DNA of 64,000 bases, taken from the NCBI GenBank assembly GCA_017617235.1, contig JAFZWQ010000008.1, positions 36,694 to 100,693 of the forward strand. Reading direction: 5' to 3'. The notes under the pieces were generated by a model. That model was not told the origin of the DNA. It saw nothing but the letters and a program-made list of their open reading frames with translations, and did not search any database. This document shows, in pieces, positions 4,170 through 37,029 of this stretch (the first letter of the stretch is position 1; every line of letters begins with the position of its first letter). The position numbers were made by a program, and so were the translations under genes. The stretch is from Bacteroidaceae bacterium (lineage in GTDB: Bacteria; Bacteroidota; Bacteroidia; Bacteroidales; Bacteroidaceae).

Positions 4170-5165
4170 TTATAAACCCAATCGGGCGGATATTTCCAGC
4201 ATGCGATTGATGGGTCGGATGGCTTTTTCTGCAATTTGTGGGTCAACCTCTACCTGAGGCCACTCGTATTTCAGACAGTTGTATAGTTTCTGCATCGTCA
4301 CCAACTTCATGTAGTTACATTCGTTGCAGGCACATGTGCTGTCGTTGGGTGGGGCAGGGATGAAGGTCTTTTGTGGACAGCGCTTCTGCATCTCGTGCAG
4401 AATGCCGCTTTCTGTAGCTACAATGAACTCTGTGGCATCGTCCTCGATGGCAAACTTCAACAGGGCTGCCGTACTGCCCACCTTGTCTGCTACCTTCACC
4501 ACTGGTCCCTTGCATTCCGGATGCACCAGTATCTTGGCCTGGGGATGTGCTGCCTTCAGATTGAGTATTTTCTCCAGCGAGAACTTCTCGTGTACATGGC
4601 AGGCACCATTCCACAGCAGCATGCTTCTGCCTGTAATGGAATTGATGTATCCACCCAGGTTCTGGTCGGGTGCAAAGATTATCTTCTCGTCCTTGGGGAA
4701 CGATTCCACAATCTGACGGGCATTGCCGCTGGTCACCACCACATCGGTAACAGCCTTTGTGGCTGCTGTGGTGTTTACATAACTGATAACGGTATGGTCG
4801 GGATGCGACTTCACAAAATCCTCGAAGGCCTGTGCCTCGCAGCTTTCTGCCAGCGAACAGGTGGCATTCAGGTCGGGCACCAGAACAGTCTTATCCGGAC
4901 ACAGTATCTTGTTGGTCTCGCCCATAAAGTGCACACCACACATCACTATGATTTGGGCATCCGTCTTTGCGGCCTGTTGTGCCAAAGCCAGCGAGTCGCC
5001 CACAAAGTCTGCAATATCCTGAATCTCACCATCCACATAGTAGTGAGCCATGATTACGGCATTCTTCTCACTTGCCATACGGCGGATCTCAGCCTTCAGG
5101 TCTGTGCCTTCCGGAATGGGCTCGTCAACATAGCCCTTGTCTTTCCATTCCTGCTTTATCAACAT
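4170..5165 (-). CDS. nadA: Quinolinate synthase
   Basis: 331 residues, full length for the family. It condenses iminoaspartate with dihydroxyacetone phosphate to quinolinate in NAD synthesis, in the cytoplasm, using a [4Fe-4S] cluster. Visible family motifs are AHYYVDGEIQDIADFVGDSL near the N-terminus, the cysteine in NATCSLAESC (about 103), the HPEC motif (about 195) and the C-terminal CACNECNYM; these match the three expected cluster-ligand regions. NadB and NadC are not in the window. A TAACTTTG box on the minus strand (5397-5404) would give an unusually long leader of about 220 nt. Confidence 0.96.
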   Translation of the reverse strand: MLIKQEWKDKGYVDEPIPEGTDLKAEIRRMASEKNAVIMAHYYVDGEIQDIADFVGDSLALAQQAAKTDAQIIVMCGVHFMGETNKILCPDKTVLVPDLNATCSLAESCEAQAFEDFVKSHPDHTVISYVNTTAATKAVTDVVVTSGNARQIVESFPKDEKIIFAPDQNLGGYINSITGRSMLLWNGACHVHEKFSLEKILNLKAAHPQAKILVHPECKGPVVKVADKVGSTAALLKFAIEDDATEFIVATESGILHEMQKRCPQKTFIPAPPNDSTCACNECNYMKLVTMQKLYNCLKYEWPQVEVDPQIAEKAIRPINRMLEISARLGL

Positions 5166-5569: not shown

Positions 5570-6121
5570 ATGAGAAAATTAAGGATAACCGAGATGAACC
5601 GCCTCTCTGTCGAGGAGTATCGGGAGAGCCAGAAAACCCCTCTGGTGGTGGTGCTGGACCATGTACGTTCGCTGTATAATGTGGGCAGTGTGTTCCGCAC
5701 AGCCGATGCTTTCCGACTCGGGGGTGTCTGTCTGTGTGGCATCACAGCCCGTCCTCCCCATCCAGAAATCCACAAGACTGCCCTGGGTGCAGAAGATTCT
5801 GTCAGCTGGCAATATTTCGAGCGTACAGAGGACTGTGTAGCGTGGCTCAAGGAACAGGGGTACACCGTTATGGCCATCGAGCAATGCGAAGGAAGCACAC
5901 TCCTTACGGAAATTGAAAATGGAAAATTGAAAATGGAAAATGGGAAGTTGGCGGTGGTGCTGGGAAACGAGGTGAAGGGTGTGCAGCAACAGGTGGTGGA
6001 TATGTGCGACGGCTGTCTGGAAATTCCCCAATACGGCACCAAGCATTCCATGAACGTCTCTGTCACAGCTGGCATCGTCATCTGGGAGTTGTGGAAACAC
6101 CTTACGTCAAACGCAAAATGA
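5570..6121 (+). CDS. TrmH/SpoU-family RNA 2'-O-methyltransferase
   Basis: 183 residues from the ATG at 5570; the frame is open from 5495, but a -7 box (TACTTTTG, 5522-5529) lies inside the upstream extension, so the later start is preferred. SPOUT-fold marks are HVRSLYNVGSVFRTADAF, VVLGNEVKGV and the C-terminal GTKHSMNVSVTAGI, which forms the knotted SAM site. The family methylates ribose 2'-OH in tRNA or rRNA; the exact target cannot be told. An oddity is the run EIENGKLKMENGKL just before VVLGNE, encoded by a TTGAAAATGGAAAATTGAAA-type minirepeat that seems to have been inserted in frame. A 49-aa gene follows after 7 bp. Confidence 0.9.
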   Translation: MRKLRITEMNRLSVEEYRESQKTPLVVVLDHVRSLYNVGSVFRTADAFRLGGVCLCGITARPPHPEIHKTALGAEDSVSWQYFERTEDCVAWLKEQGYTVMAIEQCEGSTLLTEIENGKLKMENGKLAVVLGNEVKGVQQQVVDMCDGCLEIPQYGTKHSMNVSVTAGIVIWELWKHLTSNAK

Positions 6122-8634: not shown

Positions 8635-9135
8635 TTATAATTCTATTTGATATTCATCTGCTACAGAGAATTGATTATATACAGTTCCAGAAGGAATAAC
8701 TGCATTACCACCTTTTTTTGCCAAATATGCCAAGCATGGTGCGAATAATAGTAATCCGACGCTAAGCCCAACAGCAAGTACCTTAGTATGTTTGTTTTCT
8801 CCCTCCTCGGAAACTGTTCCAGAAAGATGTATTGTCTGGCCGTCCACACTTGTTGTTGAGAGATTCTTTAGTGAGATAGAACCAGGTTTTCCAACTCCTT
8901 TAGCTTTTTTGGTGACAACATTTGCATTAACACGTGTACCTTTTTTGATAAGCACTTTCCCATCCGATCCTTTTACATCAGCATCCACAATGGCATCTAT
9001 TGTTTCATTTGTCTTACTCGATATTTCAGACATTGTGCGGATGTAAACAACCGTTCCTCGTGTGAGGGGAGACGATGCAAAAATTGTGAGATTCAACACG
9101 GCCATTGCCATAAATAAACAACAAATTCTTTTCAT
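8635..9135 (-). CDS. Small exported protein with hydrophobic segment
   Basis: 166 residues: signal peptide (MKRICCLFMAMAVLNLTIFA), then a beta-rich stretch with GTVVYIRTMSEISSKTNETIDAIVDADV and VLIKKGTRVNANVVTKKAKGVGKPG, then a hydrophobic segment (VLAVGLSVGLLLFAPCLAYLA) near the C-terminus. The first part resembles the SAF-like, VirB10/TrbI-like beta folds found in many uncharacterised Bacteroidales periplasmic proteins; the family is not certain. It is the first gene downstream of the non-coding RNA at 9205-9463 on the same strand (70 bp from its terminator), so that RNA may control it by readthrough. Confidence 0.75.
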   Translation of the reverse strand: MKRICCLFMAMAVLNLTIFASSPLTRGTVVYIRTMSEISSKTNETIDAIVDADVKGSDGKVLIKKGTRVNANVVTKKAKGVGKPGSISLKNLSTTSVDGQTIHLSGTVSEEGENKHTKVLAVGLSVGLLLFAPCLAYLAKKGGNAVIPSGTVYNQFSVADEYQIEL

Positions 9136-9204
9136 AATTGTAATGTTTTATTGGTTAATAATAAATAAGGTTAATATAATAATCAGTATTTGGATTGGAC
9201 ACAT

Positions 9205-9238
9205 AAAAAAGACGTGGACAAATTACTTCGTCTACGTC
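9205..9238 (-). terminator. Intrinsic terminator of RNA copy A
   Basis: On the minus strand GACGTAGAC (9230-9238) pairs with GTCCACGTC (9211-9219), with one mismatch, and a run of six T follows (9205-9210). The 5' arm shares GAC with the closing helix P1, so P1 and the terminator compete for those bases. Confidence 0.7.
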
Positions 9239-9463
9239 ATCTGAGGTATTGGGGATAACCTATATTGCTTCAACGAGTAAATGCCCACGCCCGACGGCGT
9301 GAACTATCTACTTCGGTTCTTGCAATATTATCTTCAAATTCCCCAATTGTCAGATGACAAGAATCAAAAGTGGATGTTCATCCTATATGTCCATGTTAAT
9401 CAATCTCAGCCCATAGGCAATTCTGTTTTATGGTTTAGTAGGTTAATAGCTTATTAGCTTAAC
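9205..9463 (-). ncRNA. Structured non-coding RNA, copy A (no family recognised)
   Basis: About 259 nt on the minus strand, from a start inferred about 7 nt after the -7 box to the T-run at 9205-9210. Helices (plus-strand coordinates): P1 9350-9358 with 9236-9244 (9 bp); P2 9340-9346 with 9249-9255; P3 9322-9328 with 9262-9268; P4 7 bp near 9303-9309 with 9277-9283, including one G-U pair valid only in this orientation; P5 GGCGTG 9296-9301 with CACGCC 9286-9291. Copy B at 36014-36260 keeps every helix with different bases, while CCTATGGGCT, GGACATAT, TACCTCAG and GTAGACGAAGTAA are conserved. It has its own promoter and terminator. It could be a 6S-like RNA, an attenuator or part of a mobile module; I cannot decide. 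Confidence 0.75.
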
Positions 9464-9469
9464 TCGCAG

Positions 9470-9500
9470 CAAATATAGTGATAGTTTCCGATACAACAAA
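9470..9500 (-). promoter_or_regulatory. Promoter of RNA copy A
   Basis: On the minus strand TTTG (9497-9500), a 19-bp spacer, then TATATTTG (9470-9477). This is a full match to the Bacteroidetes primary sigma factor consensus TTTG-N19-21-TAnnTTTG and sets the direction of the RNA. Confidence 0.75.
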
Positions 9501-18980: not shown

Positions 18981-19129
18981 AGTCAATTCTTTATTATATT
19001 AATAATTCACGATGGGAAAGAGTCAGGCTTGGAATGCATGATGAACAGTCCGTTCATCGTTTTAGCATTTTTTATTGTGGTTGCAAGCAGCCCAAATCTG
19101 TCCACATTCTTTCTTTTATCTTTGCAATA

Positions 19130-19168: not shown

Positions 19169-19250
19169 TACCCAGAGCCGGGGTCGAACCGGCACGGGTT
19201 GCCCCACTGGTGTTTGAGACCAGCGCGTCTACCGATTCCGCCATCTGGGC
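19169..19250 (-). tRNA. tRNA-Leu (anticodon CAA)
   Basis: 82 nt on the minus strand. The acceptor arms GCCCAGA and TCTGGGT pair with a terminal G-U; the anticodon stem CTGGT/ACCAG encloses the loop CTCAAAC with anticodon CAA, reading UUG. The TPsiC arm has GGTTCGACCCC. The long variable arm of a class II tRNA is present (GTGGGGCAACCCGT region). CCA is not encoded. Its own promoter lies just upstream. Confidence 0.95.
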
Positions 19251-35976: not shown

Positions 35977-36007
35977 TTTGCATTTCACTTACTTATTCGT
36001 ATCTTTG
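35977..36007 (+). promoter_or_regulatory. Promoter of RNA copy B
   Basis: TTTG (35977-35980), 19-bp spacer, TATCTTTG (36000-36007). Same spacing as the promoter of copy A. Confidence 0.75.
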
Positions 36008-36013
36008 CCGTGT

Positions 36014-36260
36014 GACGATTGCAAATGATGTTAAATTAAACTGAAATTACCGCCTATGGGCTAAGATAACATAAAAGGACATATTGGAAGAAGCGTCCGC
36101 TTTAGTTCTTGTTTCTGAAATTCGCCAAAATAAAGAGACAATCAAGAGTAAAAGTACGGATGCTCACGCCGATGGCGTGGGCTTTTACTCGGATATGATT
36201 GTCGGGTGTTTGGCGATACCTCAGAAACGTAGACGAAGTAACAAGTCCACGTTTTCTTTT
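36014..36260 (+). ncRNA. Structured non-coding RNA, copy B (no family recognised)
   Basis: About 247 nt, from a start inferred about 7 nt after the -7 box to the T-rich tract at 36251-36260. Helices: P1 GTTTCTGA 36111-36118 with TCAGAAAC 36221-36228; P2 TCGCCAAA 36122-36129 with TTTGGCGA 36209-36216; P3 GACAATCA 36137-36144 with TGATTGTC 36196-36203; P4 GAGTAAAAG 36146-36154 with CTTTTACTC 36182-36190; P5 CACGCC 36165-36170 with GGCGTG 36174-36179. All are perfect. Compared with copy A, P1, P2 and P3 differ on both strands but stay paired. It lies 44 bp before an AT-rich gene cluster on the same strand. A 72-codon frame across it is not credible as protein. Confidence 0.75.
36225..36260 (+). 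terminator. Intrinsic terminator of RNA copy B
   Basis: AAACGTAGAC (36225-36234) pairs with GTCCACGTTT (36245-36254) with one mismatch, and TTCTTTT follows. AAAC is shared with the 3' strand of P1, so the closing helix and the terminator are partly exclusive, as in attenuators. Confidence 0.7.
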
Positions 36261-36303: not shown

Positions 36304-37029
36304 ATGATTATAGAACCTCGGTTATATTACGATACGGTTTCAAAAGTATTCTCCATAGATTCCACACATAATAGTGTAGAACTATTTAAGGCACATTATC
36401 GAGAAAACCTAAAATGTGGAAGAAACGAATTTATACAAGATCAATATAGAGTAATAATACAAACGAACTTCTATCCTAAAGCCCTTCAGAGGCAATATAT
36501 TTATGTAAATATATACATCAATGATATTCTGATTCTCCCTCTATCATTGGCGTATAGGCCTAATGTCAGGTGGTGGTGTTATAATTTAATTGAAAACATA
36601 TACTTTTCCGAATATAAAACACATAGTGGGAATGTCTCCATATATCCTAAAGAGCCATCAACAATTGTCAAACAAGGAGACAATATCAACTGGGAGGAAA
36701 TACTCCTAATAGTTTGTGAAATATGTAATAACTATAAAGAGTGGATCTCTAACGAAGTTAGCTCCTTTGTAGATAAAGTAGAGAAACTTTCACATTTAGA
36801 TTGGAGAATTTGTTCTATGGCGATATCTATGATACGTATCTATGATGAACTTGTTCCGGAGATTATTCCAATGTATCAACCTTTATTAGATTGCAAAGTA
36901 TTGGATGCTATGAATGCTTTTTGGAAATATGTAAAACAAGACAAAGCATCCAATACCGAGATGAAACAATTGATGGAAAAAGGTGAAGTTATATGGCATT
37001 ATATTCAGAACTATAAACTTAAAAACTAG
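36304..37029 (+). CDS. Hypothetical protein of the AT-rich accessory cluster
   Basis: 241 residues from the ATG at 36304; a GTG at 36283 would add seven residues in an A-rich stretch. No signal peptide or membrane helix. It is rich in aromatic residues and Ile (QRQYIYVNIYINDILILPLSLAYRPNVRWWCYNLIENIYF), with a helical C-terminal half (WEEILLIVCEICNNYKEWISNEVSSFVDKVEKLSHLDW). I do not recognise a family. Base composition is far more AT-rich than the core genes, which suggests transfer. It is the first gene after RNA copy B. Confidence 0.7.
   Translation: MIIEPRLYYDTVSKVFSIDSTHNSVELFKAHYRENLKCGRNEFIQDQYRVIIQTNFYPKALQRQYIYVNIYINDILILPLSLAYRPNVRWWCYNLIENIYFSEYKTHSGNVSIYPKEPSTIVKQGDNINWEEILLIVCEICNNYKEWISNEVSSFVDKVEKLSHLDWRICSMAISMIRIYDELVPEIIPMYQPLLDCKVLDAMNAFWKYVKQDKASNTEMKQLMEKGEVIWHYIQNYKLKN

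Follow-up and report, generated by a model that had tools for sequence, protein, structure and literature searches.

What kind of RNA is encoded at 9205-9463 of the stretch of DNA analysed here, i.e., 64,000 nucleotides from a Bacteroidaceae bacterium (hereafter the window)? To our knowledge, the cis-acting RNA regulators described from the Bacteroidota, a dominant phylum of the animal gut, are few. A sequence-only reading had described a two-copy structured RNA with a promoter, a rod of helices whose arms change together while pairing is kept, and a 3' terminator hairpin. It recognised no named family, left a divergent 6S-like RNA as an alternative, and proposed a covariance-model search and a test of covariation. 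Its core, i.e., that an RNA structure is maintained by selection on base pairing and matches no named family, was supported; the 6S-like alternative was not.

The two copies in the window (A and B) lie where that reading had placed them and align over the whole element; the letters of the P1, P2 and P3 arms are also as it gave them. Copy A is on the minus strand (core 9204-9392) and copy B on the plus strand (core 36077-36260), and the two are homologous structured RNAs whose differences include compensatory ones. Both fold better than shuffled sequences (z = -5.17 for copy A and -4.29 for copy B), with 0 of 200 shuffles as good in each case. From the fold and the letters, the rod of copy A contains P1 (5' arm GTCATCTGA at 9350-9358; 3' arm 9236-9244), P2 (5' arm TTGGGGA, 9340-9346), P3 (5' arm ATATTGC, 9322-9328; 3' arm 9262-9268) and P5 (9296-9304 with 9283-9291). 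The corresponding arms in copy B are P1, 36111-36118 with 36221-36228; P2, 36122-36129 with 36209-36216; P3, 36137-36144 with 36196-36203; and P5, 36162-36170 with 36174-36182; the 5' arm of P4 is GAGTAAAA (36146-36153). The swap tests described below also bear on P2 in both copies and on P5 in copy A.

Relatives of the element proved to be numerous. A nucleotide search gave matches in 26 of 61 genomes, including the source genome, which carries copies at other loci, including five with 84-92% identity to copy B. A covariance model, R1, was built from 35 copies, among them copy A (137.5 bits) and copy B (211.1 bits), with three broken copies (L042, L015 and L049) excluded from the alignment. 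One of these (L015 5433-5479, on contig 20 of the source genome) retains a minimal open reading frame (ORF) and the 5' part of the element, the rod being replaced by a simple, strong hairpin (GAAGAAGCGACC...GGTCGCTTCTTC). With the source genome included each time, R1 found the element at E ≤ 1e-3 in 106 of the 139 genomes searched from the genus. At E ≤ 1e-4 it did so in 143 of the 393 searched from the order, which represent 88 of 207 genera, and in 45 of 395 from the phylum (three from the same order, 37 from other orders of the class and five from outside the class); the E-values are rough, and the order and phylum counts may be low because only six candidates per genome were scored. In five genomes chosen for having several matches, R1 found 8 (the source genome), 17, 20, 10 and 13, so that "two-copy" understates the number.

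An exact 19-base pattern was found in at least 120 stretches of named records, of which 80 were examined as loci. Besides many uncultured Bacteroidales, the pattern matches listed included Bacteroides timonensis, B. acidifaciens, B. cutis, Phocaeicola massiliensis, Butyricimonas synergistica DSM 23225, Coprobacter secundus 177 and Leyella lascolaii. R1 matched 73 of the 80 listed loci at the pattern, several of them weakly; seven of the 80, including B. acidifaciens, had no R1 match at E ≤ 0.01. Read by eye, the B. acidifaciens variant (L167 6330-6550) has P2, the GGU/ACC module described below and a long complementarity between strands 3 and 4 with quite different letters, together with a poor U-run. 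Seven IMG/VR contigs (L329-L335) carry the element, with the exact pattern in seven stretches and an ORF start no more than 70 nt after each; a blastn search of plasmids with copy B gave no match. For the tests below, the match set was reduced from 191 to 188 by removing two reverse-strand shadow matches (in set A3) and one duplicate core. A pattern-selected set (A4, 76 rows) lost two stray rows and five repeated cores, and the 69 rows left were used only for the tally of ORF against leader fold and for a final letter check (AGGAGG).

The apparent novelty was examined at the level of databases and the literature. At gathering score, a scan of the whole window with Rfam 15 gave only a SAM-II riboswitch (56.9 bits) and an adjoining tRNA gene, both on the minus strand (19052-19111 and 19169-19250), and nothing at the element. 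Permissive scans of both copy stretches picked up nothing beyond weak hits to unrelated families, the best with an E of 0.28. There was no Rfam match at the element in either window copy, in eight pattern loci or in the nine loci scanned from other orders, in agreement with the earlier reading, which knew of no named family that it matches. A search with 6S-Flavo (RF01685) found nothing in the source genome, nor in any of the 14 control genomes. Within the parts covered of the papers in a literature search that included PMC2864571, PMC7366714 and PMC9723704, no paper was recognised as describing the family; in the parts of PMC11109978 and PMC8632094 available to the search, five Bacteroidota names were looked for and found in 0 places. 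According to the part of PMC9723704 covered, its supplement gives 64 structured 5' regions in Flavobacterium psychrophilum, and the leader family may overlap with these. Both copies are members of a large and apparently uncatalogued family of switch-like leaders present in many Bacteroidota.

The claim of paired-base covariation was borne out by 100 order-wide R1 matches (set A5), in which 47 of 51 rod pairs had changes on both sides with pairing kept, and 88.9% of rod cells were paired. The rod scored 0.577 for covariation, whereas shuffles gave 0.167 (0 of 500 reached the observed value) and sliding the partners gave 0.078 at most. Fitting the alignment to the model structure makes it lean towards that structure, and it is the slid-partner controls that bear on this bias. 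Less general was the last helix (helix 8), the local 3' hairpin that had been taken as the terminator, in which just 46.3% of cells were paired. We therefore rejected it as a general terminator; it may matter in some copies, and it does prefer its own partner over swapped ones (z = -8.5), which counts against the attenuator reading developed below. The strong stem ahead of the U-run is instead a long-range pairing between two segments that we term strands 3 and 4.

This long-range stem belongs to a second set of pairings, involving four strands. Strand 1 is in the 5' hairpin region (copy A, 9370-9379; copy B, AGCGTCCG at 36092-36099), strand 2 comprises the bulge and the start of the P5 5' arm (9301-9311; CGGATGCT at 36157-36164), strand 3 contains the P5 3' arm (9277-9291; 36175-36189) and strand 4 is the last stretch ahead of the U-run (9211-9229; 36237-36252). 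The positions of strand 2, and of strand 1 in copy A, were read from the letters; for strand 1 in copy B a spacing count was also used. The pairings 1:2, 2:3 and 3:4 are mutually exclusive, and 2:3 is part of the rod. The 3:4 duplex has 15 pairs in each window copy (-20.9 kcal/mol in A and -19.4 kcal/mol in B) and is followed by a U-run (9205-9210 in A; 36252-36260 in B). Over the 188 copies it has 14 pairs on average (minimum, 7).

Each strand was tested, in fixed windows, for pairing with its own partner versus the partners of other copies, using the 188 unique copies and 2000 permutations. Own partners were better for 1:2 (-10.20 versus -8.30 kcal/mol; z = -13.6), 2:3 (-9.51 versus -9.18 kcal/mol; z = -4.6) and 3:4 (-16.48 versus -14.73 kcal/mol; z = -15.4), with 0 of 2000 permutations as good in each case. 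The control pairs 1:3, 2:4 and 1:4 gave z values of +0.8, -0.9 and +1.8; these statistics ignore the kinship of the copies, which the control pairs share. A 1:4 pairing (5' AAGCGU with 3' ACGCUUUU) had been suspected at first and was not clearly supported; with a shorter strand-4 window its z value was -2.0 (55 of 2000 permutations). Reading the letters by eye, we also saw that in L019, L040 and L041 a change of strand 2 from GCUC to GUUC is accompanied by changes in both strand 1 and strand 3.

A U-run (at least four T in the next six nt) directly follows 3:4 in 186 of 188 copies, compared with 13% of background 6-mers, but because the R1 model ends in a U-run, the matches lean towards having one. 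When the RNA is cut before strand 3, the minimum free energy (MFE) structure has 1:2 in 187 of 188 copies. The full-length MFE structure, folded freely, has P5 without 3:4 in 180 of 188, and the 3:4 state is less stable than the 2:3 state by a mean of 13.0 kcal/mol (SD, 6.2). Since 2:3 is thermodynamically favoured, termination or switching, if it works, must be kinetic or driven by a factor.

An ATG ORF of at least 60 amino acids (or running off the locus), scored within 250 nt after the element, was present after 174 of 184 copies at a median distance of 57 nt. Under a stricter rule (at least 100 amino acids within 120 nt), 131 of 161 copies had such an ORF downstream on the same strand, and 3 of 161 had one in divergent orientation. 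Of 187 copies, 109 have a TAnnTTTG promoter box in the 110 nt upstream, with 12.1 expected from shuffles; the 60 nt that follow the element contain the box in 3 of 188 (shuffles, 5.7). The -7 box is TATATTTG at 9470-9477 in copy A and TATCTTTG at 36000-36007 in copy B. Copy A precedes a minus-strand gene for 166 amino acids (8635-9135), whose ATG is 70 nt past the element and whose N-terminus passes our signal rule. The gene after copy B (36304-37029, plus strand, 241 amino acids; the ORF list alternatively starts it at GTG 36283) encodes a protein with no Pfam match and no export-like N-terminus by this rule. This protein is 33% identical in alignment to one encoded after a related element in L016. 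In one locus (L029), two elements about 1.4 kb apart (4485-4670 and 5867-6055) each lie ahead of their own gene.

The downstream genes share a type of N-terminus. By a crude, home-made rule (an early K or R followed by a hydrophobic stretch, using Kyte-Doolittle values; not SignalP), 138 of 174 downstream ORFs, including open ones running off the locus, had an export-signal-like N-terminus, compared with 63 of 189 other ORFs from 40 of the loci; lipobox-like sequences were found in 33 of 174 and 13 of 189, respectively. Pfam, run on 150 of 156 downstream proteins, each cut at 400 amino acids, gave 157 families, led by LRR_5 (14), LRR_8 (11), Por_Secre_tail (6), Lcl_C (4) and Dockerin_1 (4); among the 25 listed, those from rank 12 onward had two proteins each, and no shared pathway was evident among the 150. 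In four loci from another order (L336, L337, L341 and L343), the element is about 220 nt ahead of genes whose N-termini, read by eye, resemble TonB-dependent receptors. On this sequence evidence, the element is the 5' leader of many different genes, most of them encoding export-like N-termini.

Between promoter and element, many copies have a minimal ORF, which is ATG GGC TGA in copy A (9406-9414) and ATG GGC TAA in copy B (36056-36064); other forms include ATGTAA, ATGTAG, ATGACATAA, ATGGGCTAA and ATGAACAGATAA. The 55 nt ahead of the element hold an ATG, zero to three codons and a stop in 126 of 186 copies (72 of 87 in set A3 and 54 of 99 in A5), compared with 35.8 in shuffles (maximum, 52) and 22 in the preceding 55 nt. 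An ATG between -50 and -7 occurs in 145 of 188 copies (93.9 in shuffles), and in 121 of these 145 the 3'-most ATG has a stop no more than two codons later in frame 0, compared with 16 and 26 for frames 1 and 2; with redundancy removed, the figures were 43 of 55 versus 6 and 9. The distance from ATG to strand 1 is narrowly distributed (median, 35 nt; quartiles, 33-37; 130 copies) and exceeds a ribosome footprint, and we rejected the idea that a ribosome on the ORF directly covers strand 1. The absence of the ORF from 60 of 186 copies counts against the attenuator reading. In 47 of the 94 copies without it, the leader downstream of the promoter box folds at -6 kcal/mol or lower. The ORF and this 5' hairpin are not strict alternatives: among 257 copies, the ORF alone is present in 128, the hairpin alone in 47, both in 35 and neither in 47. 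Bacteroidota are said to use few Shine-Dalgarno sites, so that AGGAGG is unusual there; it occurs no more than 80 nt upstream in seven of the 257 copies, all without a minimal ORF (L272, L280, L288, L298, L299, L315 and L317). In all nine copies examined from other orders, the element lies just 7-13 nt past the closest promoter box, with no ATG in the gap. Since the minimal ORF is missing from many copies, including these nine, it would be an added input and not the core switch.

A more constant feature is the GGU/ACC module around the P2 3' arm (9245-9260 in copy A; 36205-36220 in copy B). In a directed search, 185 of 188 copies had this arm flanked by a GGN and an NCC able to pair (GGT/ACC in 159, GGT/GCC in 13, GGC/GCC in 9 and others in 4), and a swapped-stem test, serving as the control for this search, showed that a copy's own stem pairs better than swapped ones (z = -11.0). 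The pair encloses 8-10 nt in 171 of the 185. The pairing might represent either an alternative hairpin or a pseudoknot spanning P2, and the conserved GGU/P2/ACC module is a candidate for the core sensor or for a protein site.

Taken as a whole, these features point to a cis-acting transcription attenuator in 5' mRNA leaders, chiefly of genes for exported proteins, and we consider this the probable explanation. By its sequence, the leader can fold either as the rod P1-P5, with 2:3, or as 1:2 plus 3:4 ahead of the U-run. In the latter fold 3:4 would act as a terminator and the gene would be off; in the former, the rod would act through 2:3 as an antiterminator, and the gene would be on. During transcription 1:2 could form first, favouring 3:4, and some input would then decide between the two folds, the candidates being the start-stop ORF and the GGU/ACC module. 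We tentatively suggest a ribosome on the start-stop ORF as the likeliest extra input in the approximately two thirds of copies that have one. A broader idea, i.e., a phylum-wide switch gating the surface proteome of Bacteroidota, in which, in Bacteroidales, the translation state is read and opening of the attenuator depends on a ribosome that starts and stops on this ORF while hardly elongating, is speculative and rather doubtful.

The GGU/ACC module would also suit a small-molecule riboswitch, with the rod and GGU/P2/ACC as aptamer and either 3:4 or the local hairpin as expression platform. Its near-constant pairing and preference for its own stem, an enclosed length such as a pseudoknot across P2 would need, and the existence of the core without the minimal ORF in other orders all agree with this. 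Riboswitch targets usually, though not strictly, belong to one pathway, whereas the genes here have no evident pathway in common, and we regard a riboswitch as unlikely. The leader might instead protect the mRNA or set its translation, the U-run not causing termination. The leader folds in half of the ORF-less copies, and the AGGAGG sequences in seven, could protect the 5' end, but a static stabiliser has no obvious use for three exclusive pairings or for a 3:4 stem that ends at a U-run in nearly every copy, and this explanation seems to us more improbable still.

A free-standing small RNA, 6S-like or base-pairing and with its own terminator, would account for the promoter box, the U-run and the rod shape. 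However, same-strand start codons follow the element with hardly any promoter box in between, and several copies per genome lie ahead of unrelated genes. 6S RNA is an independent gene and not an mRNA leader; here, most copies lead a same-strand ORF, and each of the five genomes counted has 8-20 matches. On the grounds of position and copy number we rejected the 6S-like alternative, and a free-standing RNA of any kind is very improbable. The least probable explanation is a MITE-like mobile DNA element carrying a promoter, with the palindromes as features of DNA. The closely similar copies elsewhere in the source genome are what it would produce, but transposition alone explains neither compensatory stem changes nor a fixed orientation relative to genes. 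Spread by copying is, in any case, compatible with an attenuator.

If the attenuator reading is correct, a device used several times per genome would form a common layer of control over the cell surface, with targets that include BspA-type LRR proteins, lipoprotein-like proteins and proteins with a T9SS sorting tail, and the start-stop ORF in the leader would represent a novel type of translational input. The closest comparison is with trp-type attenuators. In the trp leader, regions 2:3 and 3:4 act as antiterminator and terminator, and the present family has the same elements, i.e., a leader ORF, strands 1-4 with 1:2, 2:3 and 3:4 (mutually exclusive by the swap test), a U-run after 3:4 (in 186 of 188 copies, a count favoured by the end of the model) and a gene downstream. 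In contrast to trp-type leaders, the ORF is an ATG with zero to three varied codons, is optional and lies some 35 nt ahead of strand 1; strands 2 and 3 are inside a long, covarying rod, 3:4 closes a long loop; and the targets share an export-like N-terminus, not a pathway. Because a leader peptide with a run of regulatory codons was not found (zero to three varied codons; no ORF in 60 of 186 copies), we do not file the family as trp-type despite its topology.

Among motifs found computationally in the same phylum, Bacteroidales-1 (RF01693), Bacteroides-1 (RF01694) and Flavo-1 (RF01705), listed in Table 1 of Weinberg 2010 (PMC2864571), did not match the element copies in the stretches scanned. 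JUMPstart/ops with RfaH, and UpxY/LoaP antitermination, likewise involve leaders before surface or export genes and act on elongation, whereas the present element would be a four-strand RNA switch. Start-stop upstream ORFs in plants and the bar minigenes of phage lambda resemble the minimal ORF in having an AUG followed by a stop at once or after one codon; what differs here is that the leader of a bacterial mRNA carries the ORF, whose distance from an attenuator-like RNA varies little.
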